Source: Halichondria panicea
Taxonomy: Eukaryota > Porifera > Demospongiae > Suberitida > Halichondriidae
Direction of reading: 5' to 3'
Length of the DNA stretch: 64,000 nucleotides
Assembly (NCBI RefSeq): GCF_963675165.1
Contig: NC_087384.1
Span: 3,060,501-3,124,500, forward strand
The stretch's first letter is position 1. The number at the start of each line of letters is the position of its first letter. This document shows positions 1 to 63,854 of this stretch, one piece after another. Below the pieces are notes generated by a model. It did no database searches and had not been told where the DNA came from. It worked only from the letters and a program-made list of their open reading frames with translations. The translations under genes were made by a program, and so were the position numbers.

Positions 1-3000
1 AAATTTTTCTATCGTAGAAGAGAAATGGTGTCGTCTTGGAGAGTAGACAGCCGAGGGAGAGGGGGTGAGTGCAGCGGAGGTCAAGGACAGAGAATAGTGG
101 CGACAGCTGATTGTTGAGGTGCTTTAATTGAAGGAATCTCATCCGAACGTCTTTTAGTGTTAGACCTACATGTACATGTGCATGTACGTACAAGTAGCAA
201 AGTACATGTTAACAAGCACAATTTAGAGAGACGAAAATTGAAATAACAATAACGTACCTTGTAGTGGAGATAGTTGGTGACTAGTCACATGAGCTTCTGA
301 CAGGCTGATGTCCCATGGCTCGATACTATCAGCAGTGGTTGCTAGGCTACGACACATCGAATCCACAAAGTGTACGATAGCATAGTCTTGTGCTTCTGTT
401 AGTTGGCACGACAACGTATCGAAAGGGAAGAAACCACACCTAAAACAAGAACATGCAGTATAGTGTGAAGGAACAACTACATGTACATGTACTATTAATT
501 TGTACAACATGCAGTTTACATGTACAAAATGTACACGTACAATTATTAAGTACCATGTGCACATCTTTACCTCTCAAAATGGAAGTCATATCCACAGGCC
601 AGAAGTCCTAGCCACACTGCTTTCACACCCTCACCCGTTACCAGTTTCACACGCTCACACACCCAGTTCACAAATTTGTCCTCTGAGAGCAACCCCTCTT
701 CATTACCATGGCTCTTCCACACTCGACGAACCAACTCGTCAGCCGTTTCGCCAGCCTCTGATGCACACCCATTCACAAAATGCTGTAAATTATTCGACAC
801 AGAAGAAATCGAAATCAAAGCGTCTGTTTCCCTCGCTTTGCTCGAAGCAAAGATTTCTGATAGCATTTGTTGTACTTGGTCACTCAATGAGTTTTCTTTG
901 ATAAGTTTCTCTCGCAGAAAGTTCACAAGGACCTCGTTGGCCAACTTGTCATCTCCACACTTTAGACCATCACTGATGGTGCAAACTTGTACAGAGCTGT
1001 CCTCTATCTTCAGTGCAGGGCAGGATAGAAGTGCAGTTGAAACCTGAGACACTTGAGTGGAGCAGCACACTTCCAACAAAGCACAACCTGCTACTACCTC
1101 TTTCACACCAACATCAATGGAATCTATATCGTCTTTGCTCTTTTCAATATTCTCCACTTCTGTCGATTTCGCTTGACTTTCTTCAGCTTCTGTTTCGTCT
1201 TTGTTACTGAAAACATCCTCACTGACTTCCTCAGTTGGGAGATAAAGTTGATCTCTATACAGCCCTCCATACATGCTGCATAACTTTTGAATTCCCTTCT
1301 GTACATTCTCCACATTTAGACGCTGATCGATACCTGTGACAATCACCAACCGAGAGGTGGGCTTTGACTTCCACTGACAAGAGAGGCTGGCTTCATGAGA
1401 CACAGGGCTGGAAGATGGCTCTAATACGACACTTCTTAAGAGAGACGCAGACGTGTGGACGCTAGACAACCAGTCTTCTTTTTTCTTTGAAGACGAATCG
1501 CTTTGGGAATCACGCTTTGACGACCTCCGAGAACGAGATTTTTTCGAGGGCTTCTTGGTCAACTCAGCAATAGATGGTGGTGCTGCTGATGAAGTTGAAT
1601 CAGTGGGTCTGGCTTCAGAAGAGGTGGACCTTGTTACACTGGGTGGAGACACAATAAGAGAAGTGGCGGGAGACATGGTAGGAAGTAGTTCTACACTATG
1701 AAAGTGCTCTTGATATTTTGCAGCAGAGAGTACAAACTCAAAAATGGCTTGGAAATATGTGGAGAATTTACCAGACCCACCGCTAGCTACACTACCAGCT
1801 GGAGGAAACACGGATGGCTTGTTTTTGCCTTGGAACTTGATTGTTTCATTTTCGAACACTTTTATCAGTTCTTGTCGGATACTTTGGAGGAATTCGCCAG
1901 GGAAACAATACATTTGAGGCTTTTTACTCTTAACATCACTGTTGAAAATATAACAAAGTGTCCACAGGATATCGGTCAATTGATGTAACAATAAAATCTT
2001 GAGCAGTTGAGGACAGCTGAGCCGAGCTACCACTTTACATAGACCCTCCAGACATACACACAGCGCCTTTCCACAATCCATAATATGGTTTGATCCCTTG
2101 TCCTTGTTGTATAGATTCACTGCATGTTTTGATAATATTTCCGAGAAGGCTAGAGCTAGTGGGACTCCGGCTGGTAGAGCGAGAATGTTCAGGGATTTGC
2201 CAGGTCGTGTGTTACAACCCCCTAGTTTAACGTGGATACGACTGAACGGAAGCATAAGAGAGGGGTATGTCGGGCCACAGTACTGGGTAGATGACAATTG
2301 AACCATTTCGTTCGGGTAGCGAGCAACTTCTTGCATTTGTTGGATGCCCCCCTTTCCTTGCCCACCCCTGTAGCAGAGGATGCGTGCCCACGGGTACTTG
2401 TAGGTTGAGCTGCAGGGGTAGAAGTAAATGCCATACAGAGTAAAATTAGCTTGTACGCTTTGCAAATTATTATTAGGCAAAAATACCATTCAACATGTAC
2501 GTACATGAGTGCACACAGAGGAGGAATGCCAGGGTCATTTTTTTAATGAAAGATTAGTCCTGGGTACTTGACCTTTGTTGCATATACATGTACAACTGTA
2601 CAACACCCTAGCCACAGAAGGCTAATTTTCTATATCATATCTTGTGGTTTCAAAGAAAAGGTCAAGGGTTGCAATGAAATCCTGGATCTCCTCCCTCAAG
2701 CTGGTTTGTCTGAGGCGCGACAGCTTAACTGATTTTTGTTGTAATTATAAAGAGGATTAGTAAAACCAGTAGGTTTTACATAGGATTGGCAGTGGGTTTG
2801 CCCGTGTTTAGCAATATTTAAATTATTTTGACTCATGTTCAAACTGTTCTATCTCTGCAGGGAAAGGCCACATCAAGGAACTGGCTAGACAGATAGTTTC
2901 TTTAGCCTTTTCTCTCTTTGTATCTCTCATTTCATAATCCATGAACATTTTAATGAATGAATATTGACATTTTAAAAATTGCACTATTTCTACGTTTCAC

Positions 3001-6000
3001 CGCTCTTTGTCTGACTGACTAAGTAAGTGAGTAAGTTTCTTGCCCAGCATTTGCTCCAAGTACAGCCATCTCCAGGACATTCTGCACAGGGTTTCCAAAA
3101 GACTACAACCTGGATTACAAAGCGCTTCTTCAGATTTGCGATTGCTTCCACGAGGCAGATGACCTCTCAGTATCTATTTCTCTTACCTAGACAATTCCGC
3201 CATCTTTAATGACTCAGCAATTGCGTTGTGGCCAATTAATAATAGATAGGCGTGGCTAAGAAACCGTGTGCCTAAAATCAGTGCAGTGCTTTTCCAGAGC
3301 CTGAGGTGTTGCTTTTCTTCACACTGTTCAGCTCTAGCTCCCTTTCTCTGACAGGCATGCATGCTATATGCACTGGCATATAGCATGCTCTTAAAATAAC
3401 TGATACTGATTCACAAATTCAACATATCAAGCAATATTACTCATTATTAGTCCAGAGATATTCGAGAAGATATCTGATTAGTCCTGTCTTCTCTTCTTGA
3501 ACGTCTGTACTGCCTCTTAACGCCACTTATGCATGTCATAATACGTAAATTTATACTTCTGTACTGAAAAAGAAAGGGAATCCGACTAGAAAAACATTTG
3601 AAATTTGAAAAATTGCTAGGATTGGCCAGGGGAACCACAAAAAAGCGTGGAAACAAGAAATCAGACGAGAGCATAACTCCAATCCATTACAACGTCATGA
3701 ACATGTACAATGCATAGTATATAGACTGCTATGTGTTCCAGATCCATCTACCAGCTTCCATCCACCACATCATTCCATGCAGGTCACCAGTATGGTCCGT
3801 GCATGTTACTACGCATGGATGGACTGTGTGTACCTGTGCTCATGTATTAGGAACATCAATTCAGTACAAATCATCATATTATAATTATGCCCGCACATTC
3901 CAAAATGGATGTATAATAGGGATTGCATGGTCATCACTCCACCAGTAAAAATTGCGTGGTATATTGGCTGGGAAAACATGGGAAAACTACCAGTATACAT
4001 GTGATTGACGTTGTAACGGATTGGAGTTATGCTCTCGTCTGATTTCTTGTTTCCACGCTTTTTTGTGGTTCCCCTGGCCAATCCTAGCAATTTTTCACAT
4101 TGCAAATGTTTTTCTAGTCGGATCAAACTAGTGGTGGTGCATAAACCCAAGGGCGCGAGGGTAAACTCAGTTTTAGGCACGTGGTGTTAATGACATTTTG
4201 ACACCATTCCTGCTCTGCAGTGTACATGTGGTGTACAATGTATATGTAGATTCAACAATAATAGTTTCAACAATAAGATACTACATGTACTGTACAATGT
4301 TTTCAGGTGAAAACGATTGCAAATCAGCCAGAAAATGTTATCACTTTTTACTATATAATTGTGATGACATAACACTCAAAGTTTGCAAACATTGTAGTAC
4401 GGTAACACAATACATTGTAACTTGCAATACAAGCCTACCTTGGAGGTCTTGAAGTGGCAGAGCCGTCATTCACACAAGATACGAGCATGAAGGCAGCATC
4501 AGGATAAGTGACATCAAAGGCCTCCTTGCTCTCCGTCACTTTGAGCTCTGAAGAGCTGAAACTCTGAGGGGCTCGCTGCAAGCAATCGCACAGGTCTTGA
4601 GAGAGCGCCACCAGGTCAGCTGACATCTGGTAGAATAGTGATGATAATCAGTACAGTATTAAAAATGTATTTTAAGCAGTTTGGTCCTTGAGGGAGAATA
4701 ATTAATTGTTATAGTATGTCGAAATGACAGTAATACATGTAACTATACAATGGACGACTCTACAGCTCTACAGTACGGTAAGTTTTTGTGTAGCTACGTT
4801 TGGCGGATTTTATCTAAGATACATGTAGCCAATTAAAACCGTTAAATTGAAGTTTTCCCGTAGACACAACGTCATTGCTGTAGTAGTCACGCCTGAAAAA
4901 CACCAAGTCGATTCAGCTCATTCGCCAATTTTTCAGTTAGGCCACCCAACTTAACTACATGCTTCACGGATGCACTTTTTGTGAAAATCTAAAAAAAACC
5001 CACAACCACCCACTCTAGTATAAAACTTATTTGTGACCACAACTTACCAGTCTAAAAACACCCACTCTCCCTAAAAATTGTATATACATGTATATATAAT
5101 TATACCGTATAGCGCGAAATTTTCGAGGGGCTTAATTTTCGCGGATTTCGTGGGTTAGAATTCTACACGAAAATAAGTCCACGAAAATTGTTAAATTACC
5201 TGCTATAACGTGCAAAGATTTAAGGCGTGGCTTCCGGTTAGCAGTCATTCCGCGAACATTGTGCAGCGAAATGGCTTTTAGAGGCCAATCCACAAAATAT
5301 AAGTGCCTCGAAAATTTCGCGCTATACGGTATATATACAGGCCTGGCTGGTAAATTGCTACTGAAAGTCCGTGAAACATGTTATTAAGTTGGCTTGGCCT
5401 TATATGGTACACTGTAGCATGTAGAACACTCTCACCTGTATGGCTTGCTGCAGCTCAGTGTGCATTCTGTCCACATCAGAGTAGAACGTGTGCATAGGTG
5501 ACAGTGCGAGTGTGTGGAGGGCAGCAGTGGGGGAGGGGGCAAGATCCGGACTAGTGGTCGTACTCAGTCCATCGGAGAGGGGCTCAGCAAAACACTCGGC
5601 ATTCACTAGGTACAGATGATTCACCACCTCCTCTCTAGAATCGTCTAGGACATGCTTCACTCTCAAGAGAGCCCTCCGACAATAGAGGCTGGCAAGGGAC
5701 CTCTCACACTGCAGGAGCTCCCTGTGGACTAGCATATTAGCAGCATCTGCACCCCTCAAGGCAGGGGACTTGCGGTAACCCGGAGGGGGGCGCTCCAAGT
5801 AGACCACTGGATACCAGAATCTTACTAAGGCTCCCTCGTTTTGTAGGTAGCACTCAATCTGAATGATCTCATTTGACTGTGTGAATGCAAGGTACACATG
5901 TTAATCGTTCCAGATGCTGTAAAGCTGTACATAACACTGCATTCGCAGGATGTTTTATATTCTTGTACTGTACATGTACACATTTCCCAATTAAGTGCAC

Positions 6001-7715
6001 ATTCCATTCTGTAATCCACAACCATCACACTGCTAGTTGACACCTCCAGTTAATCCCACACACCACTCACATGGTCAACATCTAACACAATCCCAGTGAG
6101 TCCCTGCGTCTTTTGCATGGCTCTGACCCCACACCGTAAACAAGGTAGTTCTTTCTGCACCACCACCGCCGAGCCCTTCCTGATTCGAGAGATTGTGAAC
6201 TTTCCAAGTTCAGCTTTCACGTCATCCATTGTGGGTAAACGCAGGTCCTTGGGTATCCCTCCATTTTCTTCGTACAGGAACTCGACTGTCTCTTGTGCAA
6301 TACTCTCCATGCCTGCGATAAAGAGATTAAAGGAACAGCATATATTATAATTATGTACATGTAGCAAGATAAAATCAGATATGTGCCTCATGTAAACTAC
6401 AGTACATGTACACATGTACTTTGTTTATCGTTTGCAATGGAGCTCTTTAAAGCATAACACAAAACAATAACCGAACCATTCTCTGATACAGTACACATGA
6501 GGATACAACTACGTGCTGTACATGCAATTTGTACCGTCATACATGTACATGCACCTAGTTGCAGTGCTCCCTTGATCTGCTCCAGGCCAGACTTTCTCTC
6601 CTGATCGTTCCTAAACCGCCTTTGAATGACGGGGAAGACCTTGGCCTCCCAGGCCTTCACTAGGAGGGCGTGAAGGTCCTCCTCTCCGGCAGTGCTTGGC
6701 CCCTCCTCCTCCTCAACATCCTCAGACTCGACCACACCCCCTCCTGGGCGAACCAATGGCCCACTCTCCAGCATGGTGTCAAACGAGGAAGTGGGCTGGT
6801 AGGCTTGAGATGCTTCATAGTCATAGCCTGGGAGGAACAACAATTAAACCTTGACTATACTCTAGCGACCATACTACCACTATACGTATACAGTGTATGA
6901 TGGTATGAATTATATACATGATGGTACATGTACACTGTACAACGTGCACAGGTGCAGTGCACATACATGTATTAATACTCCCTAAAAATGCCTTTATTTC
7001 ACTACAAGCATTGAACGCAAGTGTTGTTTGGAGTTAACCAACAGACTTTTGGCACTTACCCACAGTAGCAATGGGTGGTTTGAGTTTTCTTGTGGGAGGG
7101 CCGGTGTGTGACAGTTCGACAACACTTGCCCCACCAGCCACCTTTGTGACCTCCTCTCCCTCCTTCTCCCCCTCACTATCACTAACCCCCACAGAGAAAG
7201 GGAGAGCTCCAAAGTGAGCCAGCACAGTCTCAGCAGACTCACTGTCCTCCTGAATGTTGGCTGCCTCTCTATGGATGGAGCCTCCAGCGTAGAGGAAGGC
7301 ACGCTCTCCAAGGTTGGCCCTCATGCGAACGGCCTACACAATCAATACAGTACATATGCACATGCTTGCCGAACACGTATAGGACTAAATAGTACAAGTC
7401 TTCTCAACTCACAAATTTGTTTGCAGCTACTGTGTAGACATGGAACTACATACATGTATGCACTATATCGATGTCTTACTTTTTTCTGTACATGTAGGAA
7501 TGGAAACATGTTGGGTGGAGCATCGTTGAACTCTGTCCCCTGCCGCTCCCCGTTGAGTGTGAAGTAGACAGTACTGATTCCACCCTCCTCTCCCTGCACC
7601 CAACCACACCCCACAACATCACCAGTCTTGAGTGGGGAGTCCAGGCGAAATGTGTTCCACTCCATAGAATTGTCGCCAGTTACCTGACACGCTCGACCAG
7701 AGCTGTAACGTGATC

Positions 7716-7749
<34 letters not shown>

Positions 7750-10700
7750 GTATAGAACATTAAACTTATATGTATGTGTGTGACCAATACACAGCACAAA
7801 CAGAGCACAAAAAAGTTTTTTTATTCACACACAGCTGTATGCTTTATAACAGAAGGAAAATTATTGCTAACACACATCGTTTTACTCAGAGCAATCAACT
7901 GTCACCTTTCACCTTAATAGCTACATGTACATGTATCTCTCACCTTCTAATGAAGCAGGACCCAACTGGATACAGCCATTGCTCTCCTCCACCATCTCCA
8001 GGGCTCGGGGAGTATCCCATGGCAACATGTGCTGTATCAGCTGAGCTCTCGCCCAGATGTGCCACCTCCAGCTCCCAGTAGAACGATGGAGCCTGGAAAT
8101 GAGCACAACCATCAACCAAAGTTCAGGAAAACAAAGAAACAGTACAACCTCATACATTTTTGGTGGAAAAACACATTACTACTGACCTGTGATGGTATGG
8201 CCATGTTGGTGTAGATGACCACGCCCTTTGGTTGCCCGGTGGCGGGTGTATCCCCACTACTGAGGTTAGCGGGAGCATGAGGAGTGAATCCGGATGGACC
8301 CTGGTAAGTGACGCACATGAGGTTGTGCGTGAAGGAGCACGAGGTCACAGGAGGCCACACTCGAGTCACGTCCAGTTTGAACTGCTTGGGCTGCACATAC
8401 ATGTAGAGTGGTGTACATGTATAGAGTGTGTTGAGAACACGTTGTGAATGTCTAAACACAAGATTCAGCTGACAAACAGTAATTTGTTTACATGTACAAG
8501 TAAGCACGATTATATAATCCAGCACTGCATCGCCTAAGTTTTCTACATTGAAATCAAGTGCTAACGAGTATATATGTACAAGTATTCTATTAATACCTCA
8601 CTGGCCGAAATGAGGCTGGCGGCTTTAATGCAATGTGCACACTAATCAAATAATTTTCACCTCTCTCCTGACCCTCTCTACTCTGGGTGCTGCTGGTCTG
8701 CTGCAGTCCCTATACAGCATCCTCAGGCCATGACAGTGCTGCTCCACCAAAGACAACCTCACACCAGGACTGGAGCTTCGAGCTTGCTCAGACAGCTTCT
8801 CCAAACACATCTTGTTATTGTCGCTCTCGCCCAAAAACACCTGAGCAAATTTTGGGTCCTGGACATGATGAGATAGGGCTACACACGCACGAGTCCTTAT
8901 CTCTGCGAACAGACGACACAGACCAAGAGGGGAAGTGTTGGCATCAGCGTTAGTGCTGGCATGAGTTGGGGAGGGTGTGATGGTGTCTAAGAGGGACATA
9001 ATGGCTTTACAGAGTTCTTTTTGGAGTCCAAGTTGCTCCAGTGGTATCGTATCCTTGTGAGGCGGGAGAAGACGAGAGATAGGCACTTCTAGAGTCTTGT
9101 TAGCACCGAAGCACAACTCATCATCTCCAAATTGCACATTGGCCAACCCACGACGCTCGGATATGCTCTGGATAACTCCATTGGATCCTTCCAAACCCTC
9201 TCCGACCACTTGCACCTTCAATCCTGGTCTAATGCTTTCCTTGAATCCTCCCAAAGCAGCAAATGTCGCATTGGCTATGCACGCTGAAGAGAGTAGATCA
9301 CCAGGTGGTGATGGGGTACCACCTTTGGACACTGTATTGCTAACCGATTCTGTGTATGAGGCTATTTTTGGTGAGAGTAGTGGAACGGACACAAGCGACT
9401 GTAACATTGAGCTCTTGATGGCTTTGCCCCACACTTCAGCAGCACCTGGTTCAGTCAGTAGTCCATTCAATAAACCAATCACTTCAGAGGCCAAAGAGTA
9501 GGCAACGTGTCCACTAACAAATGGCCGAGTGGGATCCGTCTTGAGCAATTCGACGTTCTTCTTCCTAGCAGCTAACTCAGACTTGGCCTTTTTCTTATCG
9601 ACCCCAGAGCCCGCAACTTCCCCTGTTCCCACTGAGGGTGGCCCCACACTGACTGTGAATCCCATGTTGGCCCAGCGGAGGGAACGACGCACACAGGAAC
9701 GATATGAGTCTGTGAGGACCTCTGCGACCCCATTCTGTGTTAGGGCACGGTCCATTGCCATCACTTGCTGCATCCGATCACCTCCACTCAGTCTAGTGCA
9801 TGTGGGTGTATGATAACATATTATGCTTAATATATTATAATTATACTTTTACATGCCTGTACATACATGTATGTCTGCTAAAATATTGCAAGAGCATTAC
9901 ACAAAAAAGCTGTTGAGTTTATTCACCTGAATTGCCTGGGGTCCTGACTGATGAGGGGTTGCAGGATGTCTGCTGCATTCTCATTCTCCCTCTTGTAAAC
10001 ATAGACTGAGGCCTGTCCGCTCTCCTGCTCAAACTCATCCTCCTTGTGGGTTGGGCCTTGTGATAGGTGCTCCGCCTCCTCCAGTGACCCCGAGTCATCA
10101 GTCACTGCCTTGTTGGAAACCTAAGTCAGAAGACAAACCAATTGTAAGCTCAGCATCGTAGAATCACGCTACACAGATTCAAGTGTAAAGAATGCATGTA
10201 CATGGAAGTACATACATGTAACACCTAGCCTAGCATGGACATATATGTACATGTATGACTCATCAGAGAGCGAGCGTACAGCACAAAGAAAACAGTAGGC
10301 CTAAACCAGTACATCCGTTTTAAAACTGACTCTGCTGTAATTCATAATCCCAGTGTACATGTATGACCTAAAACTGCAACATTGTTAATCTCAAAATCTC
10401 GTCCCAGCCGTGCGATGTTCTTATTTTGGATGCATAATTGCATGAGCAGCCTCCGCGCATGTGCAAATGTGCAAGCTTCAAGTATTCACTGTTATTGCTG
10501 TGTATGTACAATAACGAGTATTATTGTCGAAGCTATATATAATTATATATAATTATACACATGTATCCATGTTGTAAATGCAGTATTTAGCAACCAGGTG
10601 AGCAGAAACGAAAACACTGACAGGCTACTAAATATGCGACTGGGGTAATAAACTACGAGACATAATTATTATGCTGAGTTTATGTCAGAAGTACATTTGT

Positions 10701-13700
10701 ACTGCATGTACACACATGCTTGTACACAGCAATACCTGTGATGAGTCTGGCACAATGTACTCTGCTAATTTTGAGAGAAAGAGCCCAACGATCTGCCCGG
10801 CCACACCAGATCCAGTCTTCCCCCCTTCTGAGGTCAGCTCTGTCGTGAGGAGATGAGGGGGTACCTCCACTTGTGAGCAGTCAGCCATACTCATTAGGGG
10901 CAAGGCAATTCGACACAGCTGTAACGCTATCAGTACCAGCTTGGGGGAAGGCCTGAAGGGAGCATGGGGTACACATGTATGTCATACTACATGTAGGAGT
11001 TTCTGAGTCTGCATACGTACTTACAGTAGAAAGCACACGCACATACATGTACGTGCATGTAAAACTATGTCATTAAAAAACCGTTCCCCTAGAAAATTAC
11101 AACAGTGAGCTCAACTCTCGTGGTTGACCCAATGAACAGCTACACATAATGTCAGGAGTGCTATTCATGCACTCCTGATAATGTAGAGCTACGTACATGT
11201 AATCTTCTGTAACATGTACATGTACAACTGTATTGACATCGTACATACAGCCTACAGTGGTGATACAGATGACTTGCCTCTGATCTGTGAGCAGGAGCAA
11301 TAGCTTTGAGACACAGGCTGGCTGTGAAAGGATGGCCCTGCCCATTTGACTCTTGGCTAGTCCCAATAGGAGGGAGAGGGCATCCTGTAAGCTCTCCGAG
11401 GCCCCACCCTCTGACACCACCAGCCGATCCATAGCACGGGAGAGATGGTTTGTGAGGAGATGAGATACCTGTTTGTACAATGCAGAGTGTAAAGTGCTGA
11501 AAAGCTGCATATTGAGGATAATATATGAACCCGGACATCATAGTGGTTCTAATTGTTTACTAAATACTTAGTAAAGACATAGAATTCGTAACTTTTACAC
11601 TACACACTGTACATGTGGAGATAAATTTTGAGACATCAATTACACTTGCATGTCGATATATAGACACATGCACAACTGACGATGTGGGTCTTACTTGCTG
11701 AGCCAGTCCTGAGGAGAGGGTGGTGTCTTGATTCTCCCAAGAGACGCATTGCTCTGCCAATACTTGAAACGAAGCCCAAGATAGAGAAGTCACACGATGA
11801 ATGGACTCGTCAGCTGCTCCACCTACATCTAATGGCTTGTTAGTGTCGACCAAACTACACAGATGATCGAGGAGTTTAACAAGCCCACTGCGCACCAGAC
11901 AATCCTCCTCCAGTCTGTATGTGCGTGTAGGAGGGGGTGGGGTTAACCTCACACACTACATGTGTATACATATATGTAGTATATATAAAAAGGAACAAGA
12001 CTACACTGTAAGTATGTACCTTAAGGATATTTATTACAGAATTATACGTACCTATTACAGGATGTATTATTGCTTGAAGTTTGGTGCAACAGTTGCATGT
12101 ACGAAATTTTAATACACACACGTACTTACAATCAATGCACAGTATGTGATGTGTGGTAATTAACCTAAATTGTACGTACACATGTACTAACCGAGTGAAG
12201 GGTACAATGCAGAGCATGGCAATGGTGTTAATGCAGGAGGCTGGCTGCTTGCTGGCTAACTCCACCACGGCTCGCATCACACTCCCAAACACCTCTCGCA
12301 CTCTCTCTCCCATCCCCCCACATGCAATGTCCTGTACGCCCGGCCCCTTCTGAAGCACCACTCCCACAGACGCCAGTAGCTGCTCAACGGCCAAACCAAC
12401 ATAGTCACTGCTCAGTAGTTGCTGCAAGTGGCCCAGGGCTCGAACACGACACACACCCCTGCGCCAGTGCTGACTGGCCGCTGAGAGGAAGCTATCACAT
12501 GAGGCCTGTAAGAGGGCGGTCAAATATTGCTCAAACTACATGTACATGTAGTATGCAGTATAATATTGCAGATGAACTTTTGGTATGTTATGACTCTGCT
12601 TACTGCTTCTTCAGGTTTGCTGCCTATGAACTGGAAAATTTGATCGAGCAAACTTGACTGGTCAGCTGAGATGGCCATGTCCAACAGCGCCAATTTGTTG
12701 GCAGACTTTGGCCCCCAACTTCTCTGTCTCCTGTCAGCATTAATTGTGCATGGTTAAGGCAGCATCAATCGTGTATCTATAGAGTATATTCCCTTTAATC
12801 TTATCATGAGAGCTCTACAATACAATGTACAAGTCATGTGCAATTTGGGAAATTTTTTATTTATGCAACATAACCCCCCTAAGAGCTTCACCTGATGCTC
12901 ACATCCACAGTGGAGGGAGGGGCTGATATAGATCGGGTATATGTGGATCCAGAAGAGAGAAGATCTTCTTTAGCCATGCCCCCCCCTTCCTTGACGGAAG
13001 CCGATCCTTCAGTGTGGGAAATTGTAATGTTAAGTAGTAGCTGTACTCTCTCTTGAATCCCTTTCACTAGGGTCCGGGTCTGTGTGGGTGAGTGGTTGTG
13101 ACTCTGTCCAGTTACATTGTACACACAACCATTGACAGTTGCACGTCGCATGTATATAAATTACATGTATGTTTTTAAAACACCCGACTTTAGGGCCGAA
13201 AGCTATCAGCTACGTTAACTAGGAACATCTTCTGGTGTCTACATCAGATTATAATTTTGCAGTACGAAACTGTCAGGTACACTGTACATGCATATACATG
13301 TACAGTACTATAAGCACAATGCTCTTACCACTGGCGTGTAGTCGAGTGGCTCACCACTCCCCGCCCGCCTCCTCTCCACATCCAACTCCAGCAGGTCTTG
13401 TAGCTGCTGGGCCGTCGACACCAGGTCACCGTGATTTGCCTCTATCTTTTTCAGAACACACAGCAACTCAAAGCTCTTCAGAGAGCTCTCGTTTTGCAGC
13501 AGAGAGAAAAAGAAAGCCTCTGATGTTGTGGCTTTATCGGAATGACACATATCTTCTACGTCATGCCACCAGTTTCCCTCTAACTCGGCCAGTGCCTGTA
13601 GTCTGCGCTCTAGACCATTAATCCGCGTGAAAATAGCCTCTAGTAGGGCTGTATGCGTGTCTAGACACGACTTTTGTCCGAGGATCTGCAGGGGGGATCC

Positions 13701-50900: not shown

Positions 50901-52901
50901 TACATAAGCACAATAATTTAACTCCCACGATATAATATTATTATCTTTTTGGCTAACACAATAGCCGACTTACCATGCTCTCTAATTAGAGAAAGAGCTG
51001 TGGGGTGCTTTCTCTTCACATCACCTTCAGACCTGCAAACACACAAACATTGTAGTTACATGTACAAAAAGTAGTCAACAATGAGTAAATGCCAGCCTCA
51101 CAACAGTGCCAGAAACATAATTTCGGATTGGTACATAGCAGAATACTTACTCGATACTTTGATTTGGCATAGAGCTTTGCTTGAGGAAAATTCTGGAAGG
51201 AGAAAGACAATTTTACATCAGTACTGTATACAAATTAATAATAGATATATACAATTATTATAGCATGCATGTTGTAATGCTCTTCCACTGACATGTCGAT
51301 GGATTCATCCAGGGAGGGGTGTTTCTGAAGACTGGGAGGGGACTTACTGAGAGACAACAACTCATCCTATGAGAAGGAATGTGGATACATGACATTGTAG
51401 CACAGTATCTAAGTATCAATCTGTGTAAAATGACTCTCTATTTCACTACAGGACTAAGTGGCTACAATACATAGGATACCGGAGTTGACAGACCATAAGA
51501 CAATCCCTACATTTGTTATCATTAATTTTCATGCAATCTATCACAAAAGTTTACACCGATCTTTCACGTGCGCCTACAATATATTGTAGAGTAAAAAACC
51601 ATTCACAATTTGTACATACTACTGTGAACATGTACTGCACAGCTGGAATATCCTCTAGACAAACTCACTCTTGTATATTGTATCCTGCTTGATTTTTCCT
51701 CCTGTGCGGAGTCAACAGGAGCATCCTCAGTTGCAGTCACCTTCTCCTGTTCCTCAGATTCACTCTCCCCAGCACCACCAGTTGACAGGTCCACTACTGA
51801 AGTATCAGTTGACTCTAGTTCATTATTTGGCTCGACTGAGGGTGGGGATTGACCAATACCACTGTCCTTCCTATCACTACGCTTAATGTCTCTAGACGTG
51901 GTCTTTGAAGGGGCTCCATTTTCTTTGGGTAGTTTCTTTGATTTTGGGTCTGTGCTGTCCAAATCATGGGATTGACCTTTCCGGTGATGTGACACACTTC
52001 CCTTGGCCTTTGTCGGTGCTGAATTGGTACGCAGAGGGAGCTTGGATGAGTCGGCACCTCTGCTGTGTTCTGAGCGACCAGTTTGGGGACGAAGTTTGTA
52101 GTCGGCAGGCTTCTCGTGTGACTGAAAGGAAGTAGATATACACTAATCAGGGTGTCATACAGGATTTTGAAGTAGAGGGGGGAAATGAGAAAAGTAACCA
52201 GAAAATGTTGCTAAAAAAAGGTCAACTATTATTTCAATACCCAACTAAGGACACTCAGTCATAATTGAAAGGGGGGGGGGGGGGGGGATTGGAGCTATGG
52301 GGGGGGATATCCCCCCTTTCCCCCCTGTATGACACCCTGCTAATGTAGTGTACCAGGTACCATTTATCGGGTTTAGAAAGACACGCAATGCATGAGCATG
52401 TAATTTGAATAGTTAAAAACGCAATCAAGATTGTACAGTGTCATTTGCATTCAGTTAACCTTGCATTTGAAACATGACATAATGTACACAGAAATTATAC
52501 CGTACATGACTGTCTTGGTTCAAGGTTCAGTGCTGCACTGTATGTATGAGATGATTGTACAAGCAGCTAATTGTCTTACTTTTTGTTGTCAACCAAGCGA
52601 CAATAATTATTCATTGCATTACATTCAATTACATCACACAAGCAATTCACCTTTTGTTGCAAATTCCGGATCCTCTTTTGAGCAGTTGAGCACAAATCAT
52701 CTTTTCCAGCGGCTGTCTGGGGGGAGCGACCATGATGGGTTTTATTGGAAGCTCCACGACGACCTGTATATGATTGGATAATATAATAGTTAAAACATCT
52801 GAATAATAATAGGTATTTGGGAACTTACTTTGATTTGACCTTTTATATTCAGAGCTGTTGCTGCTGCTTCCAGCACTGTCTCCTTGGGTTTGACTAGACA
52901 T
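44912..52901 (-). CDS. EIF4ENIF1: 4E-T, eIF4E transporter (EIF4ENIF1)
   Basis: A multi-exon gene read leftwards from 52901 (MSSQTQGDSAGSSSNSSEYK). Recognised exons are at about 52829-52901, 52652-52764, 51669-52123, 51310-51367, 51154-51196, 50973-51032, 50509-50816, 49708-49825, 49267-49500, 48860-48998, 48117-48314, 46780-47472, 46493-46583, 46340-46410 and 44912-45156. The eIF4E-binding motif YxxxxL appears as YTRDELLSL, formed across an exon junction (ends at 51669, resumes at 51367); it matches the vertebrate 4E-T peptide. Other family blocks are KVSLSPQRKSFHGGC, EEEEPEWMEFGP with IELTG-like ELMELTGL, and DLGAFNKLVAGLQFSGAL. The protein is long, low-complexity and largely disordered, as in the family. 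4E-T represses translation and builds P-bodies by linking eIF4E to decay factors. A strong GTGAGT donor sits just before the apparent stop, so one more 3' exon is possible. Confidence 0.87.
45250..46085 (+). repeat. Two adjacent copies of the GAATAAAGGCCG dispersed repeat
   Basis: One copy runs about 45250-45617 (GAGCACTGAAGTGCTAACCC, CACACCGGTAAAGGATCACT, ending CTTGGGTAATAA). The other runs about 45705-46085 (CAATTCTAGCTTTCTACTTT, GGCCGTGTGTAGTTACAGC). Both are in an intron of 4E-T and in the plus orientation. A related tail (CCTCGGGTAATAA) recurs near 46320-46332. Confidence 0.6.
47576..47972 (+). mobile_element. Tc1/mariner-like MITE with helix-turn-helix remnant
   Basis: Perfect terminal inverted repeats are TACAGGGTTTTGCAGAATC and GATTCTGCAAAACCCTGTA, beginning and ending in TA as expected for Tc1/mariner insertion. 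A plus-strand frame at 47650-47868 encodes GDIRWRIVHQTELLGLSYQS and VAENLQVDPSTVWN. These are typical of the homeodomain-like DNA-binding region of Tc1/IS630-type transposases. The catalytic domain is missing. It lies in a 4E-T intron. Confidence 0.75.
49079..49207. mobile_element. Short MITE of the TACAGGGTTTTGCA family
   Basis: About 128 bp with ends TACAGGGTTTTGCAAATC and TATTGCAAACCCTGTA. It shares its termini and the internal GCGTTCC block with the element at 47576-47972 but retains no transposase sequence. It lies in a neighbouring intron of 4E-T. Confidence 0.7.
49925..50055 (+). repeat. Partial GAATAAAGGCCG-family repeat (5' part only)
   Basis: It contains the 5' blocks CACTAGAGCACTTCTAA, GGCTGTTGACATGAATA and CACCGGTAAAGGATCACTTC, then departs from the family. 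It lies in a 4E-T intron. Confidence 0.5.
52149..52341. mobile_element. MITE-like element, GGGTxTCATACAGGATTTT family, copy 2
   Basis: The left end is CAGGGTGTCATACAGGATTT; the inverted right end is CCCCTGTATGACACCCTG. Its centre holds a run of about 20 G and GGGATATCCCCC. It lies in a 4E-T intron and matches copy 1 in ataxin-2. Confidence 0.7.
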
Positions 52902-53485
52902 CTTGTGGCTTGCTTTTATTCTATAAAGACACTAGATATGTTGCAGAAAACATGAAAATATTGGAAAATTAGGTTTGCAATTGAAGAGTAGGATTGTCTA
53001 CGGAGATGTAAAACTAAAAATGAGTGGTGCCACTTGATAGTCAGACACAGAGGATTCAGGAACGTTCCCCTTCGAGCTAACTCAGCTAGGATTCAAGCAG
53101 CAAAACTAGACTGGAGAATCTGACTCAGCTGGCATTTTTTGTTTCTTTGGGGTGGGGTATTAGAAATGGTCATGTGAAGCTCATGTGGAGTCACGAGACC
53201 AACCACGTTGCCATGATTATGTAAACACCCCCTCACAAGCACGGCACAAAAACGTTCGGTGAATGGGTGACCAACAAGACAGGGAGATTCCTCCCTTCTA
53301 ACGGCACCAAGCCTAACTTATACTCTTCTGCTTTCTAGTTTATTAATAGAGGCAGTAGTTTTTAACTTAGTTTGTGTAGTTCCTACGTTAGATATAACAC
53401 TATAAAGATGCAGTGCTAGGCGGCGTGTTGTTGTGGTTGTAGTGCTAGTGAGTGTAGGCCTACCCATCCCCTAGCGATCTGCCAC
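52902..53485. promoter_or_regulatory. Shared promoter region, 4E-T / Nemo-like kinase
   Basis: 584 bp lie between divergent starts. Repeated CATGTG words (GTCATGTGAAGCTCATGTGG) lie at about 53170-53190. Part of this stretch must be 5' UTR of one or both genes. Confidence 0.45.
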
Positions 53486-56400
53486 ATGATGGTGACTGTA
53501 CAGCACGCTGGAAGTATCACCTCGTATTGGCAACCTAACCATCTACTGCCTTATCACCCAGCCGGGTGTGGGCAATTGGTGCAGTGTTCATGGCATCCCA
53601 CCTCAGCTCTTTTGCCCCCAAGCAATCCTCCTATTTTTCACCTCCCATTGGTCGAGTCCCCCGTATCTCTCTCCCCTACCCCAGTGGCGTCTACAGTAGA
53701 ACCAGAACAGCCTATAGGATATGGATCTTTTGGAGTGGTCTGGTGAGTATGTGTTTTTGTTGCGCATGTAAACTGCACTGCATGCTGTATACATGTACAC
53801 GTATGTATTATAGTTTGCATTTTTCATTGACCACAATGAAACTGTGCTCAGTATGCGTTGTAATTTACGTGTATCTGTTGCTAAGCTACTTAATATTCAT
53901 GTCCAAGTGCTGACATGGAAAGTATTATGAAACGAACTATAATTAGAAGCATTCCTCTAAAAATAGAAGTCTGCCCGGTATTTTGTTTACACCTTCAATG
54001 TATGGTGGGAATACATGTTCTCACCATGAGACCTCATTCGAACATGCCTAAGTGTGCTTTGTGTGACTGAGTTTCACTGTATTCAAATCATGAGACCTCA
54101 TTTGAACATACCTAAGTGTGCTTTGTGTGACTAGTTTCACTGTATTCAAATCCAAGGTCACTCCATACATGTACATATTCACCATTCTAAGAGTTCACTC
54201 TCTTTCTTTAACTTTATTCATGTTGCTCTCATAATAGGCACTATGTTTCTCGTTGTTCCTAAACACAGGTCAGTGTTAAACCCACACTCTGGAGAGAGGA
54301 CTGCCATGAAGAAAATTCCAACTGTTTTTCATTCCCTCTTGTCTTGCATTCGAACTTTCAGAGAGATCAAGATAATGTGTGAGATAAAACATGAAAATGT
54401 AAGTATTTTCAGTGTAAACATGATGAATCACATCACACAGTAAAATACATCTGCTAAATATTGTCAACAGTACCCTAATAATTTAGCAGTTATTACTCCT
54501 TGCATTGCAGTTGTTGTCAGCAACCGACATGATTCAACCTCCCACCATGGATCAATTCAATGATATGTAAGAGAGTCATTCATTTGTTTACGACATCTGT
54601 GCCCACACTGTAAACACCCACTTCTGTGCAAAAGACATACTCCCCTACACAAGTTTGTGTGTTTTTGGTTAATAGTTTTGTTTTCCTTGCTACTGTTACT
54701 TGTTACTACTAACAATTAGTTTCAATTCCTTCAATAACTTGCACCCATTTGTGTGTTCTTTGCAATTTAGTGCCTGGAAGTGCATTGGCCACCAATTATT
54801 GATTCTCCTTTTGTTTTGTAGCTATGTGTTGAGCCAATTGATGGAATCTGACCTGCACCAGATCATAGTATCTCCTCAGAAGCTCACGGAAGATCACATA
54901 AAAGTGTTTATCTATCAGATCATAAGAGGTACTCAATGTAGTCAGTTTGTTTTACATGTAGGGAATGGTGTCATTGGCTTCATCAGCATTTATTTAGCAC
55001 CTGCTCCAAATCTATTGACAGAGTCTTGTTTATTGCATTTAGTTCCATGCACTTCTGATTTTCACAGGGCTCCAGTACTTGCATTCCGCTGGCATAATTC
55101 ATAGGTGAGTTTAAAGCCTAGTCATGATGATGTGGCAAGATATCATCGTGCTATTCCACTAGATAAATGCCTTCTTTTGTCACATTATAGTGCGAGAATT
55201 ATGTGGATACTTGTTGTATGTGGCTTCTAACCCTACATTGTATGTACATGTATGGGGGGGGGGGTGCATGTAAATTTAGCATTAGCACACAACTATCTGT
55301 TTATTTTTAAGCTTATTAGTTTTCAATTAGGAAAACAAACCCACTCTACACATACACACAGGGATATGAAACCTGGTAATCTTCTGGTCAACAGCAACTG
55401 TTTTCTTAAGATCTGTGACTTTGGATTTGCTCGAGCTATAGAGCCTAACCCGAACACTCCGATGACTCTGGAGGTCGTGACTCAATATTATCGTGCCCCT
55501 GAGTTACTGGCTGGATGCAAGCATTACGATACTGCCATTGATATCTGGTCTGTTGGCTGCATCTTTGCTGAGCTTCTGGGGAGGAAGATACTGTTTGAAG
55601 CCACCTCTCAAAGCAAACAAGTTAGTGCACCTTTCACTCTCAATTAGTACTCTTGCATATTATTATTATGTGTGGATGTGATTATCTAGCTTGATATGAT
55701 CACTGACCTGCTTGGAACGCCTTCCCTCGATGATGTGAAGCACATCACCTCTCGTAAGAGCATCAGGAACCTATTGTCTCGTCATAAGCCACCAGCCTCG
55801 CAACAACTCTATGCCCTGTCACCCAACGGTACCATCAGTCACGAGGCCGTTCATCTCTTGTCTCAGCTGCTGATTTTTAACCCTGTGAGTTCTGGCTTTA
55901 TCATTTTCAGGGCTGTTAGCCACCTTGTGGTTATCGTGTTAAGTACTATCATAACTGTAGGGCTTTATTGGGAGAACAGTGACCTTTTCTCGTAACTGAG
56001 TGGGTTCTCCCACTGAATTTAATGGTCATGAGTCTAACTATGAATAAAGTAGTTATGTAAGATTCACGGGTCGTAATCAAGGGCCTGCATTGTGCTTTAA
56101 CAATGCAATGAATACAATTAGACCACCCACTGTATATCTGCCCACTCAAAACTATTGTTCTTAAAGGCAATGTATGCATAACCCATAAATGATATCTGAA
56201 TTGCATGATGATAAGTACTCATCATCATGCCTTTCTTGTCTATTCACAGGAGAAACGTATCTCGTGTGTAGATGCCCTGTACCACCCATTCCTGGATGAT
56301 GGTCGCATTCGTTACCATACATTCTTGTGCACCTGTTGTACTACTGGGCCTGTTGGAGGAAGACAATTTGCACAAGTCCTGGAACCTAGTGCTCCAGACC

Positions 56401-56752
56401 TCTTCGACTTCTCGTACGAAAAAGATCTTGTCTCCATTCCCAAGGCTAAAGGTACATACACATATTATGCACCCCTACACGTCAGACGTGTAGGTTCTTG
56501 TTGTTTTCAATACTTAATTACTCTAATCATCAGGAATGGCAATGAAGCAGGAGTATTAATAACATACTTGTCATTGCACGTTGTCGCACTGAAGTATTTT
56601 TAGATAGCGCCGCAGTTAAGAATTAATAAAATTGCTTAATTCATACAGCTCTACTACACCGCTACATCTGCCAAACCCACTCCCACCTTCCTCCTTTATT
56701 TATCAACACCTGTTCAAAGCAGTACAAGCAATTTCAAAGGTTCGTGCATTGA
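53486..56752 (+). CDS. NLK: Nemo-like kinase (NLK), proline-directed MAPK-like Ser/Thr kinase
   Basis: Nine exons join in phase: 53486-53742, 54269-54398, 54511-54566, 54822-54928, 55068-55104, 55362-55620, 55690-55884, 56250-56451 and 56649-56752. The start at 53486 gives a His/Pro-containing leader before the kinase domain. Kinase landmarks are the Gly loop IGYGSFGVVW, catalytic lysine AMKK, glutamate helix FREIKIM, catalytic loop HRDMKPGNLLVNSN, metal-binding DFG (in CDFGFARA), APE (YYRAPELL) and DIWSVGCIFAELLGR. NLK-specific blocks LITDLLGTPSLDD-like and RIRYHTFLCTCC identify the family. NLK phosphorylates TCF/LEF and other transcription factors in Wnt, Notch and TGF-beta pathways. Odd points: the activation-loop TQE of vertebrate NLK reads TLE here, and DFGL reads DFGF. 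The short C-terminus ends KQFQRFVH. Confidence 0.96.
54020..54155. repeat. Tandem duplication of about 60 bp in NLK intron 1
   Basis: The unit CATGAGACCTCATT(C/T)GAACAT, CCTAAGTGTGCTTTGTGTGA, TTTCACTGTATTCAAATC is present twice in succession with a few differences. Confidence 0.8.
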
Positions 56753-58262: not shown

Positions 58263-59789
58263 CTAGCTATAAAGTTTGTGAATATCAGTGATCAACTCTC
58301 CTAGCACCTGGGTCTCCCATTGTGATAGTTGCTCAAGGAAGCATGTCAGTGGTCGTATGTGGTGTCGACACTTCTGCACATGACAGAAAGCCTCCTATAA
58401 TGGAAGAGAAAAGATGATGCCTTAAAGAACAGAGAACCATGACTAGACTTGCATACACTTATTACGGCTGCTCAAATTTTGTTCCTTACAATACAAAACT
58501 AACTAAATACCTTTAGGGACCACTTTTGTCTTTTCATGAGATACGCAATGATTACAGTAGCTCCTCTACTGATCCCTAACTCACTGAACACCAACACACG
58601 GTCACTTTTCTTTCTCTGAGTTTCTGGAGCATAAAAAGAGACAAGGTATTGGATATTCATGTATCCTGTAGCTATCCTCATAGAACTTTTTTACGCATAT
58701 GCTAGCCTCGATCCCAGCTGTTACTCTTTTGCAAATTATCTCATGCAGCTATAATCAATCACAAAATCAATACAATTCCTCCTCACCCAGGAACTCATAA
58801 ATTTCCTCAAACTTTGAGAGAAGATCTTGATCAGGTTGGTCGTCCACATCGAGGTGAAGCTCAGTAACTCCCTCGGGAAAGGCAGGATACAATTTACTAC
58901 CCAAACTCAAATGTACATGGATCTTTAAATCATAATTCAGGGACGCATTGTACGCATGGTGTCTGTCACCAAGGTAGAGGAACAAAGGAAGGATTTCACT
59001 TGGGTAGCGGGGAAGTGATAGAAGCTCCTGTAAAATAATTAAGTAAATGTAGCTGAATCGTTTCCTGAAGCTTTGTATATAAAAGAGTAATCTGAGACAG
59101 AACATAGCCACATACACATAACAATTTTTGATGCTGATGCACGTAAAAGTGTTGGGTAAAATAATTATTTCGGCTTACTATGTCAGTGTACATGATCTTC
59201 TGCGTTCTCAGGAAGGGGTACTCAGCGGAGAATCTCTCATAGCCTCCTTTTAGTATCATCACAGTATATTTGGATCCACTGCATGCCAACACATTGGCCA
59301 AATGTACCGCTGGCGCTGTTGTATGATAAAACGAGGATTACAAAGTTCATCCATGCTGATTGTGGACTACAATGAACACAAAGTCATGGACTTACTATCT
59401 TCTACCACAGAAACTGTGTTGCTGTCATAAACGATACAGTTGAGGCACGAAGGAAGGTGCACACCAACCGGTACTCTGTAATGTCCTTTGGTATCCCTCT
59501 TGGAAGCTTTCGAGATCACTACATGTGCTTCATTGTAATCTGCCACATCACGAGCATCTGTAACAAAATTACAGCTAAGTTCAGTTTTTGTAGAGTCAGT
59601 GCGCGCACTTACCAAACAAAGTAAGATATGTTTGAGATAAAACTGCAGGATTTTTTGTGCACTGTATAATTAAAAACAATAAATCTAGTAGGTATAGAAT
59701 GGTGTAACTTTCTAGTCTACCTGTGTGAGGATGTTGTAGAGCTGAGTTGGCTCACATAAAGCAATTCCTGCAGAGCTGGAGCTCATCAT
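58263..59789 (-). CDS. STYXL1: STYXL1 (MK-STYX) pseudophosphatase: rhodanese-like plus dead dual-specificity phosphatase domain
   Basis: Seven exons join in phase: 59721-59789, 59613-59661, 59396-59557, about 59181-59316, about 58791-59030, 58513-58630 and 58263-58398. The start is the upstream ATG of a MM pair, and ALCEPTQLYNILTQ follows as in vertebrate STYXL1. The N-terminal rhodanese-like half has LFDARDVADYNEAHVV and ILKGGYERFSAEYPFLRTQK, the latter nearly identical to the human protein. The C-terminal half is a dual-specificity phosphatase fold (ILPLFLYLGD, LKIHVHLSLG) with the signature loop VFSELGISRGATVIIAYLM. Active enzymes have HCxxGxxR here; this protein has Phe-Ser, so it lacks the catalytic cysteine, as in human MK-STYX. 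It is expected to act as a binding scaffold rather than an enzyme. It is divergent from mitochondrial MDH, 193 bp away. Confidence 0.94.
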
Positions 59790-59982
59790 GCATATCGCAT
59801 CACGCAGCACTTGGAGTTGATTCAGTTTCCATAACAACTAGATTCTATACGGACCATGTGATTTTCATGTGAGCAAAAAACCCTGACCTCTTAAATTAAT
59901 TCCAGTCAAAAATTATCCAGCAGGGCAGCAGCACTCCATTTCAGTGCTACAGACTTACTTGCTTCTCATTTCAGTTCACAAA
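59790..59982. promoter_or_regulatory. Shared promoter region, STYXL1-like / mitochondrial MDH
   Basis: Only 193 bp separate the start codons, the tightest head-to-head pair here. CATGTG words (ACCATGTGATTTTCATGTGA) are present, similar to the 4E-T/NLK spacer. Vertebrate STYXL1 protein is reported to be mitochondrial, so co-expression with MDH2 is conceivable. Confidence 0.55.
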
Positions 59983-61495
59983 ATGATGTCCCGATTGGCT
60001 GTGTGTGTGGCAACAAGAGGTGCAAGACAATTCTCGACATCTGTTCAAGTAAGAGAACGAAATCATATATTATTATTATTATTGATTTTTCCCCCTCAAG
60101 AACTCGTCTAAGGTTGCTGTACTTGGTGCAGCTGGTGGCATCGGCCAGCCTTTGGCCTTACTGTTGAAGAATAGTCCACTAGTGTCACAGCTTTCCCTCT
60201 ACGACATTGTGGGTACTCCTGGAGTGGCAGCTGATCTGAGCCACATAGAGACCAAGGGCCAAGTGACAGGACATGTGGGAGATGAGCAACTGGATGATGC
60301 TTTGAAAGGCTGCGATGTCGTCGTTATTCCTGCTGGTGTGCCCAGAAAGCCAGGTAGGTATATGGAGGGAAGATTAATTAATTAATATCAGCTGTAAAAT
60401 ATCTCAGGAATGACTCGTGATGATCTTTTCAACACTAATGCATCGATTGTCAAGAATTTGGCAAGGGCGTGCTCAAGGTTTGATGTGCTTGTCTTGCTAG
60501 TGTGTGTAACTTGTGTTCTAACACAGAAACTGCCCTGAGGCTATGCTACTGATCATCACCAACCCAGTCAATTCCACTGTCCCTATCGCATCAGAGGTCT
60601 ACAAGAAAGCTGGATGTTACAACCCCAACAGGTTGCTATCTTTAATCAGTTACTGGAACGTATGACTAGGTTAATTATCTTTTTGTGTCAATGGCTACAC
60701 AAGGCTACAGCTTGTTCTTATTGTTCCGCAAATTATATTTCCATACAGAATCTTTGGAGTGACCACCCTTGACGTAGTGAGATCTAATACATTTGTGTCA
60801 GAAGCCAAAGGCCTCAATGTGGCTGAGACTAATGTCCCGGTTATTGGAGGTCATTCAGGAGTCACAATCCTCCCTTTACTCTCTCAGACTACACCTAATG
60901 TTAGCTTCACTAACGAGGAGCTGGAAAAATTAACGGACAGGATTCAAAATGCTGGTACTGAGGTCGTCAATGCCAAGGCTGGGGCCGTGAGTTATTAATC
61001 GATTGTGTTCAAGGACCCTTTGACTACGCGTATGTTGTGTGTGTATAGGGCTCTGCGACACTCTCAATGGCCTATGCAGGTGCAAAGTTTACTATCAGAG
61101 TGAGTACAGTATGTGTTTGTCTCATCGTGTATGTTCTAATGTATGTGCATTATGATTATGCTCTGTCTGTACAGCTGTTAGAGGCAATGGGTGGAAAAAG
61201 TGGTGTTGTGGAGTGTGCCTTTGTCCAGTCTGACCTAACTGAGGCCAATTACTTTGCCACACCCCTACTCCTGGGCAAAGGAGGGGTAGAGAAGAACCTC
61301 GGTATGGGAACACTCTCTGCCTTCGAGCAAGAGAAGATGAAAGAGGTGGGTGCATAGTGTTCAAGTGGATGCTTCTTCTGTCCCACAAATTAAGATGATT
61401 ACCTGGATGCCTTAATTCTAAAAAAATTATGTTCTTTCCTACAGGTGATTCCAGAATTGCTAACAAACATCAAAAAAGGAGAAGAATTTGCCTGA
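59983..61495 (+). CDS. MDH2: Malate dehydrogenase, mitochondrial
   Basis: Eight exons join in phase: 59983-60048, 60101-60353, 60408-60477, 60527-60631, 60749-60986, 61049-61099, 61175-61345 and 61445-61495. Exon 1 encodes a mitochondrial presequence ([20 protein letters not shown]: basic, hydroxylated, no acidic residue). The NAD-binding loop is [11 protein letters not shown]. The substrate arginine loop is [15 protein letters not shown], followed by [10 protein letters not shown] and the catalytic histidine in [29 protein letters not shown] and [11 protein letters not shown] follow. It ends in [15 protein letters not shown], slightly shorter than the vertebrate C-terminus. The enzyme interconverts malate and oxaloacetate with NAD in the TCA cycle and the malate-aspartate shuttle. 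No abnormality is seen. Confidence 0.97.
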
Positions 61496-62011: not shown

Positions 62012-63854
62012 TTAGGGCCTTTTCTCTGCATGCTTCAGAGTATGATCTTGAGCTTTCTTGCAGAAGGCAGCCTTATCTCTAGTGTACTCTTCAGCTAGGT
62101 CCCCCCTCAGTGGATGCTCGGGCTCGGGGTCATGAACCAGTGCGACTAGCGCCTGAATGACTGTGTGTAGATAGATAGAAAAGTGATCGTGTATTACGTT
62201 GCCCTTTAGCCTCCTTCACAAGGCCTAATTATTAGGCCTGCTACTGACTGCTTGCGCATGCGCAAAATTATTGGATAATATTCCCGTAATGTTTTCCATT
62301 AAACTGAATTTTTACCCGAATTATATCCTGAATAACATAATTACTATATAGACGAAGAATACTCTTCATATTAAAAGTCAGACACAGAGCTATATAGCTA
62401 GCTAGCTAGAGACAGAGCTGTATTGGTTACAGCAGCAATTTCTTTCTGATAGAGTCGACTTTCACCAAGGTTAGTGTCAGATGGGCGTGGCCTATCCATA
62501 TAGGCTATTGTCAGCCTTCCCCTCCGTTTAGAGGAATGTTATCCACACTGTTGCAGGCTGTGAGTCTTTTGTTAACATAGTAGGCTAAGGGTAGCTATTA
62601 GAATGCTATCACACGGGCTAGAAACCTTCTTCTATCCACTTTCTTCAATCCACTTCCGTTCGTTGTGACGTCATTGTTTTACTGAGCATTATACGATGAT
62701 ATCCGGAGTCCCCAGTTTCTGGGGATTATGTGGCGCATGCGCAAACAGTCGATACCAGGCCCTCTCTTCGAGGAAGAGCGGCCTGGGATCGAGGCTAGTT
62801 GCCCTTATGAATGTACACGAAAGTCTGTCTGCTTAGTGTGGGGATATCTATTCAACAGGTGAGTGTGACAGCAAACCTTTATCTGTCTTTGTGGCAGGCT
62901 TCCAGTTCTCAGGACTAATGATGGGCAAACACACTTGGCCCTTCTCATCGACGTTGGGATGGTATATTTGGGTCTTGAATGTGATCTGTAGGATAATGAG
63001 AGACTGATAATTATTACTCAATCATGTGTGGCATTTCTGTGTTTGTGTAACAGTACATACATACTGTTAATTACAGGTATACACACACAATGCCGTACAC
63101 AATGCTATTGCACCCCATCGTGTGCTCACACACATACGGTCAGTCACCTTGGGTGGCTTAAATGGATACTCGGCTGGAAAAATGATCTCTATCTTGAATG
63201 CTCCCTTGTTGAATGGAGGGTTGTCCTAAGGGAGGAAAAAGACAATCCAAAATCAGCAACGCATCCATATTAACTGCCCCAACTTGGACGCACTCTGATA
63301 GTTTATGATAAGTACTATCCACGGCCTTGTGTGTAATCTATTAAAAGTGTTACATGGCACTCTCTTCTCAGAGGATTGACCTACTGTACACAAGGGGAAA
63401 TAGCTGTCGAGTGTACACACATATCCTGTCGGTAACATCAACAGAAAACAAGCCCAAGCCACACCTTTTCTATACAAATACCTGCTTTCCATACGAGGAG
63501 AGAAACTTTTATGCTTATCGAGAATAGGATGATTACAAAAGGGCCAAACCAACCACACAGCTTATGAGATTCTTGTACACTTTTTATTGACTCACAGGAA
63601 CAATCAATCCCTTCCAATTGAGTATATTGGAGTCATCCACCTCGATATTCTTAAACACTTGCTGTGAACTCTTCCGGATATCATCCAGTTCCTGAACACA
63701 CAAAACCAAAATAATGAATTCACAGCTTCAAGAGCACAAAACAACTACCTACAAATACTGTGTAATAGTGTACATATTAGAGAACATTTTGGCGGTCCTT
63801 TTTTACACTCAAAGTAGATTTACATACCTTTCCCAGTCTTCTTGTGGCAGCCAT
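62012..63854 (-). CDS. UBE2L3: UBE2L3/UbcH7-type ubiquitin-conjugating enzyme E2
   Basis: Five exons: 63828-63854 (MAATRRLGK), 63596-63691, 63148-63225, about 62872-62981 and about 62012-62161. The protein of about 153 aa matches UbcH7 along its whole length: [42 protein letters not shown], then [18 protein letters not shown] with the HPN motif and catalytic cysteine, [11 protein letters not shown], and [20 protein letters not shown]. The residues said to make UbcH7 react with cysteine (HECT and RBR ligases) rather than lysine are kept: Pro two places after the active Cys and His in EPEHPL. A partner of HECT-type ligases such as the HECTD4-like product is therefore plausible, but this is inference. 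The 62162-62870 intron has MITE-like and AT-rich sequence and no gene. Confidence 0.96.

Follow-up and report, generated by a model that had tools for sequence, protein, structure and literature searches.

In a 64,000-nucleotide stretch of the genome of the sponge Halichondria panicea (contig NC_087384.1, positions 3,060,501 to 3,124,500; hereafter the window), which has 42% GC and carries intron-rich genes, coding signal, splice sites and family matches were combined into 11 gene models in the strand order - + - + - + - + - + - (Table 1). This order, together with the distances between the start codons of the five divergent pairs, had been put forward in an original prediction made from the letters alone, and the order and all five distances were reproduced here, although two members of the series, gene 5 and gene 1, are insecure. 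The alternation claim is partly confirmed, being a largely correct and careful observation that was over-interpreted. We consider it probable that the alternation is a chance run in an ordinary gene-dense animal genome with normal close divergent pairs.

Table 1. Gene models and divergent spacers of the window (positions counted from its first nucleotide; spacers measured from ATG to ATG)
Feature	Position	Strand	Length	Description
Gene 1	1..22942	-		giant protein, at least 3561 amino acids (aa) within the window and running beyond its left edge; splice model of 36 exons without a stop, starting at ATG 22942
SPRY-like stretch of gene 1	7345-7713			SPRY E 0.0013, under the Pfam cut-off
Gene 2	23244..25141	+		RING-finger protein, presumably RNF185/RNF5-like; at least 6 exons; transposable-element-like remnant in last intron
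Gene 3	27992..35535	-		Ataxin-2 (ATXN2); ATG 35535, splice model; 3′ end approximate
Gene 4	35820..41579	+		presumably SETDB-like histone H3K9 methyltransferase; split SET domain
Gene 5	42089..42559	-	86 aa	two-exon open reading frame (ORF), GT-AG junction; weakest member of the series
Gene 6	42862..43167	+	101 aa	single-exon basic protein, LLPH-like
Gene 7	44915..52901	-		presumably 4E-T/EIF4ENIF1-like; coding islands on the - strand, splice model, ATG 52901; 3′ end uncertain
Gene 8	53486..56752	+		protein kinase, presumably NLK-like; 8 exons located; Pkinase E 6.5e-28
Gene 9	58263..59789	-		STYXL1 (pseudophosphatase); 6 exons located, stop at 58263
Gene 10	59983..61495	+		MDH2 (mitochondrial malate dehydrogenase); 8 exons located
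Gene 11	62012..63854	-		UBE2L3 (E2 ubiquitin-conjugating enzyme); 5 exons
Divergent spacer 1	22943..23243		301 bp	ATGs 22942(-)/23244(+)
Divergent spacer 2	35536..35819		284 bp	ATGs 35535(-)/35820(+); CACGTG at 35595
Divergent spacer 3	42560..42861		302 bp	ATGs 42559(-)/42862(+); CACGTG at 42799; valid only if gene 5 is a gene
Divergent spacer 4	52902..53485		584 bp	ATGs 52901(-)/53486(+)
Divergent spacer 5	59790..59982		193 bp	ATGs 59789(-)/59983(+); STYXL1/MDH2

Thirty-five exons, covering 7 of the 11 genes, were placed by peptide. Their 5′ border is AG or ATG in 27 cases and their 3′ border GT or a stop in 30, the others being peptides whose ends were not exactly placed. Gene 1, ataxin-2, the SETDB-like gene and the 4E-T-like gene come from a home-made splice model, so their ends are unreliable; the model also yields false genes opposite real exons and was used for the named genes only. 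Gene 11 matched UQ_con at E 7e-45 and, among PDB sequences, UBE2L3 at E 1e-77 as against 4e-49 for UBE2L6. For gene 10 the families found were Ldh_1_N (1.1e-25) and Ldh_1_C (6e-24), and the N-terminal 106 aa matched malate dehydrogenases best in PDB, the second row being named mitochondrial (E 2.2e-40). For gene 9 the top two PDB matches (E 7e-19 and 3e-16) both carry the name serine/threonine/tyrosine interacting-like 1; the gene's start holds two adjacent ATGs, the outer at 59789 and the inner at 59786. Ataxin-2 shows its domains on one strand (SM-ATX E 2.2e-9, PAM2 E 2.8e-5). RING families were found in gene 2 with E values down to 9e-11 when a 19-nt micro-exon (23530-23548) is included and 2e-8 when it is left out; this micro-exon completes the RING finger, has GT-AG borders and keeps the frame. 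In gene 4, both Pre-SET (7.5e-5) and SET (0.0015) stay under the Pfam cut-off, and its C-terminal SET piece matched SUVH6, SUV39H2 and EHMT1 chains in PDB, with no SETDB chain among the matches listed. Gene 6 has a weak LLPH match in Pfam (E 0.055, 14.5 bits for a cut-off of 25.7) and none among PDB sequences, and its codon score is higher than that of all 275 non-coding stop-free runs used as a null set. It may be noted that these runs were chosen for low coding posterior, so that any result in which none of the 275 reaches the score is flattered. Four exon ORFs of gene 7 gave no Pfam match, and one kinase exon of gene 8, compared with PDB at the strict threshold of E 1e-30, gave 0 matches. 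Ten exons of gene 1 gave weak Pfam matches only (SPRY, as in Table 1, and MAP65_ASE1, E 0.049, both below the cut-off), while one large exon had no match among PDB sequences; the gene is presumably of the HECTD4 type. The names RNF185, HECTD4, 4E-T, NLK, LLPH and SETDB are partly or wholly our assumption, which does not extend to the strands.

The alternation could be partly an artefact of annotation, if gene 5 is no gene, if gene 1 is in fact two tandem genes, or if small non-coding genes lie in the spacers. We hold this to be a possible but rather doubtful explanation; it is compatible with a chance run, and the confidence given to the two need not sum to one. Gene 5 accounts for 2 of the 10 alternations, since on its removal the SETDB-like and LLPH-like genes become same-strand neighbours, which leaves 8 of 9 junctions alternating (P = 0.02). 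It has no relative in Pfam or among PDB sequences, and its exon 1 has no coding bias, the score being reached by 67 of the 275 null runs. Against its dismissal, exon 2 tops all 275 runs in codon score and has consensus splice borders. The gene 5 protein carries a CxxC motif. As for gene 1, the score of the forced single gene is 1006.6 and rises by 1.9 to 1008.5 when stops are allowed; of 17 forced splits, 14 score lower and 3 score higher, by 0.3-1.9. The splice model therefore has no clear preference for one or two genes in 1-22942, and a single gene is not proven. Weighing towards one gene are its single stop-free model of 3561 aa and the palindrome TACATGTA, which runs throughout it (71 sites) and gives a weak hint of a single unit; the hint is partly circular because gene 1 itself supplies 71 of the 117 intron sites of this palindrome.

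The third form of the artefact, genes hidden in the spacers, was addressed by a coding scan of the ten spacers, which returned only five islands, each of 30-60 nt. The scan detects just 20 of the 35 located exons, which favours the artefact to that extent, although it hits all 7 genes in one exon or more; it makes one call on the wrong strand, and it could overlook a very small gene or one for a non-coding RNA that Rfam does not cover. The spacers contain 0 tRNA genes by ARAGORN (bacterial code) and 0 Rfam families at gathering scores. A same-strand gene at 43980-44264, which the original prediction itself had offered as an example of what would overturn it, has no coding signal: the mean codon score of the ORF at 43980-44261 is -0.242, matched by 119 of the 275 null runs, and it has no Pfam match. 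Two other candidates were also set aside. A plus-strand gene at 17749-17871 is read as the shadow of the gene 1 minus-strand exon 17755-17854, and a nested 47-aa gene at 24355-24495 in an intron of the RNF185-like gene, with no Pfam match, is read by eye only as a transposase-like remnant. The codon use of this last ORF is coding-like, its score being above that of all 275 null runs.

The chance of about one in a thousand that had been attached to the alternation holds for a run specified in advance (2^-10, or 1/1024), but this run was found by searching. If strands are random, sets of 20,000, 30,000 and 40,122 genes should hold 9.8, 14.6 and 19.6 runs of ten or more alternations respectively, and the longest alternating run among 20,000 random-strand genes has a median of 13. 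At the head-to-head rate of the sponge Amphimedon queenslandica, 3.7-7.5 such runs are still expected. In that species, going by the wording of the part of the paper available to us, 18,054 of 40,122 genes (45%) are head-to-head (PMC4773876), which does not exceed the 50% that random strands would give; 11,379 head-to-head genes (28% of all) lie within 1 kb, so that five of five spacers below 1 kb have a rough chance of 0.10. The authors nevertheless describe bidirectional promoters as unusually abundant in Amphimedon. Among other sources, again as far as available, the gene-orientation counts of PMC5177918 give dinoflagellate numbers and no animal ones, and PMC7385117 reports larger intergenic distances in the sponge Ephydatia than in Amphimedon and carries no strand statistics. 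Since the run was picked after the fact, it does not follow that nearly every promoter is bidirectional and that pairs are the unit of organisation, as had been proposed from it.

By the usual geometric definition, a bidirectional promoter lies between opposite-strand neighbours whose start sites are <1 kb apart, and start sites fall between the ATGs unless the transcripts overlap. This geometry was found in 5 of 5 pairs, with 193-584 bp between ATGs, one pair depending on gene 5. If divergent pairs sharing a promoter were a genome-wide unit of organisation that forces strands to alternate, perfect alternation would be automatic, and all five divergent spacers are indeed <600 bp. Several points weigh against chance alone. 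The yardstick used above, Amphimedon, is another species than that of the window. Convergent spacers measure 509-2849 bp and divergent ones 193-584 bp, so that the latter are on the whole shorter (P = 0.03 in an exact two-sided test, rising to 0.057 on leaving out gene 5). The ends of the spacers are approximate: the STYXL1 stop gives a convergent spacer of 1510 bp where 1540 was used in the test, with ranks unchanged, and the convergent spacer of 1733 bp is independent of gene 5. However, the comparison sets ATG-to-ATG against stop-to-stop distances, and of the untranslated regions (UTRs) the 3′ ones are usually the longer. Random strands alone would not lead to such a difference, unless greater 3′ UTR length accounts for it. 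Finally, CACGTG, presumably the letters of the plant-type G-box, is present in 2 of 5 divergent and 0 of 5 convergent spacers. The window as a whole has 8 sites, of which 0.21 would be expected to fall in the divergent spacers; P is 0.019 uncorrected and 0.28 once the testing of 15 strings is corrected for. The string is of interest because the plant-type G-box is reported, in the part of the paper available, to be four times commoner in bidirectional promoters of Amphimedon (PMC4773876).

Other signatures do not single out the divergent spacers. The exact strings GCGCATGCGC, CCGGAAG, ATGGCGG and GGGCGG (for NRF1, ETS, YY1 and the GC-box) occur 0 times in the five of them, and the observed/expected CpG ratio (0.40-0.76 in divergent spacers, 0.42-0.84 in convergent, 0.49 in the window) shows no consistent rise. 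The spacer geometry fits bidirectional promoters, to which CACGTG adds the only, and weak, hint from the letters themselves. Pairs as a genome-wide unit are also in keeping with the bidirectional promoters reported as common in Amphimedon in the available parts of PMC4773876 and PMC5429095. On the other hand, the evidence is a single run chosen after the fact, the 45% of head-to-head genes in Amphimedon is not above random and no further spacer signature was found, and we regard such an organisation as improbable. The claim that nearly every promoter here is bidirectional keeps its geometry, the shorter divergent spacers, CACGTG and the STYXL1-MDH2 pair, and loses its generality on these same grounds.

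The window resembles what is described for Amphimedon in the portion of PMC4773876 at hand in its density (11 genes in 64 kb here, a median of 9 in 50 kb there) and in having divergent starts <1 kb apart with small spacers, two of the five with CACGTG. It differs in that GC-boxes are the commonest element there while the five spacers here have no GGGCGG, and the window is known from its sequence alone. Likewise, it agrees by geometry with the divergently paired genes of insects and vertebrates, whose start sites are <1 kb apart (PMC2670823), the comparison being one of geometry; the main text of that paper names neither STYXL1 nor MDH2.

STYXL1 and MDH2 are neighbours in the window, and in gene lists of human 7q11.23 they stand consecutively (PMC9036355 and PMC7442816, in the parts available). 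In mouse liver, Tmem120a, Styxl1 and Mdh2 are named together beside Por, with synchronous pre-mRNA rhythms across the locus (PMC7877755, available in part). The adjacency common to the sponge window, human and mouse makes STYXL1-MDH2 the one pair with outside support. Its likeness to the conserved ancestral microsyntenic pairs of PMC5429095 (also available in part) is by this adjacency in sponge and vertebrates. A literature search found no paper combining STYXL1, MDH2 and ‘bidirectional’. We assume that in human STYXL1 is on the minus and MDH2 on the plus strand, that is, head-to-head. MDH2 is absent from the main texts of PMC8907265 and PMC10761714; according to the abstract of the latter, the STYXL1 pseudophosphatase is implicated in sperm tubulin folding. 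The spacer between the two is a candidate ancient bidirectional promoter, which would join the gene of a pseudophosphatase to that of a Krebs-cycle enzyme. That the genome consists of divergent pairs to an extent well above the usual, with promoters shared as a rule, and that in addition the STYXL1-MDH2 head-to-head promoter predates the split of this lineage from vertebrates, appears to us highly unlikely as a joint statement. The other four divergent pairs give no firm sign of a special organisation.

Some repeats of the window were also recorded. A fold-back element (26125-27314) enlarges one convergent spacer, that between the RNF185-like gene and ataxin-2; the element's 507-nt inverted arms, 26125-26631 and 26808-27314, are 92% complementary and 176 nt apart. 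An inverted repeat at 3580-4123 with 133-nt arms (94% complementary) lies within an intron of gene 1, and an 82-nt dispersed repeat, 89% identical between its copies, is found at 29969-30050 (ataxin-2 intron) and 44326-44407 (near the 3′ end of the 4E-T-like gene). The palindrome TACATGTA has 123 sites where an order-3 Markov model expects 13.5. They span 1-55250, lying mainly in gene 1 and SETDB-like introns, and are absent from the last 8.75 kb of the window; 83 of the 102 clusters are single sites. Introns (31.3 kb) hold 117 of them, intergenic sequence (8.75 kb) holds 4 and coding sequence 2; for this distribution P is about 1e-8, or 2e-5 when clusters are counted. Introns of gene 1 and of the SETDB-like gene carry about 6 sites per kb, those of STYXL1, MDH2, UBE2L3 and gene 5 carry none, and the intron bias is possibly a regional effect. 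A literature search on the palindrome gave no mention of it among the matches listed.

Taking the run as chance, gene strands would be near random, divergent neighbours would lie close together, and these eleven genes would simply happen to alternate. In the close divergent pairs, transcription in both directions probably starts from one open promoter region common to the two genes, an arrangement proposed for other compact animal genomes as well, and STYXL1-MDH2, judging by the conservation of the neighbours, is probably an old pair held together by a shared promoter. However striking it looks, the strand pattern of a single window has to be judged against a genome-wide yardstick, since several runs of ten alternations are to be expected in each genome. 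What remains of use is the STYXL1-MDH2 pair.

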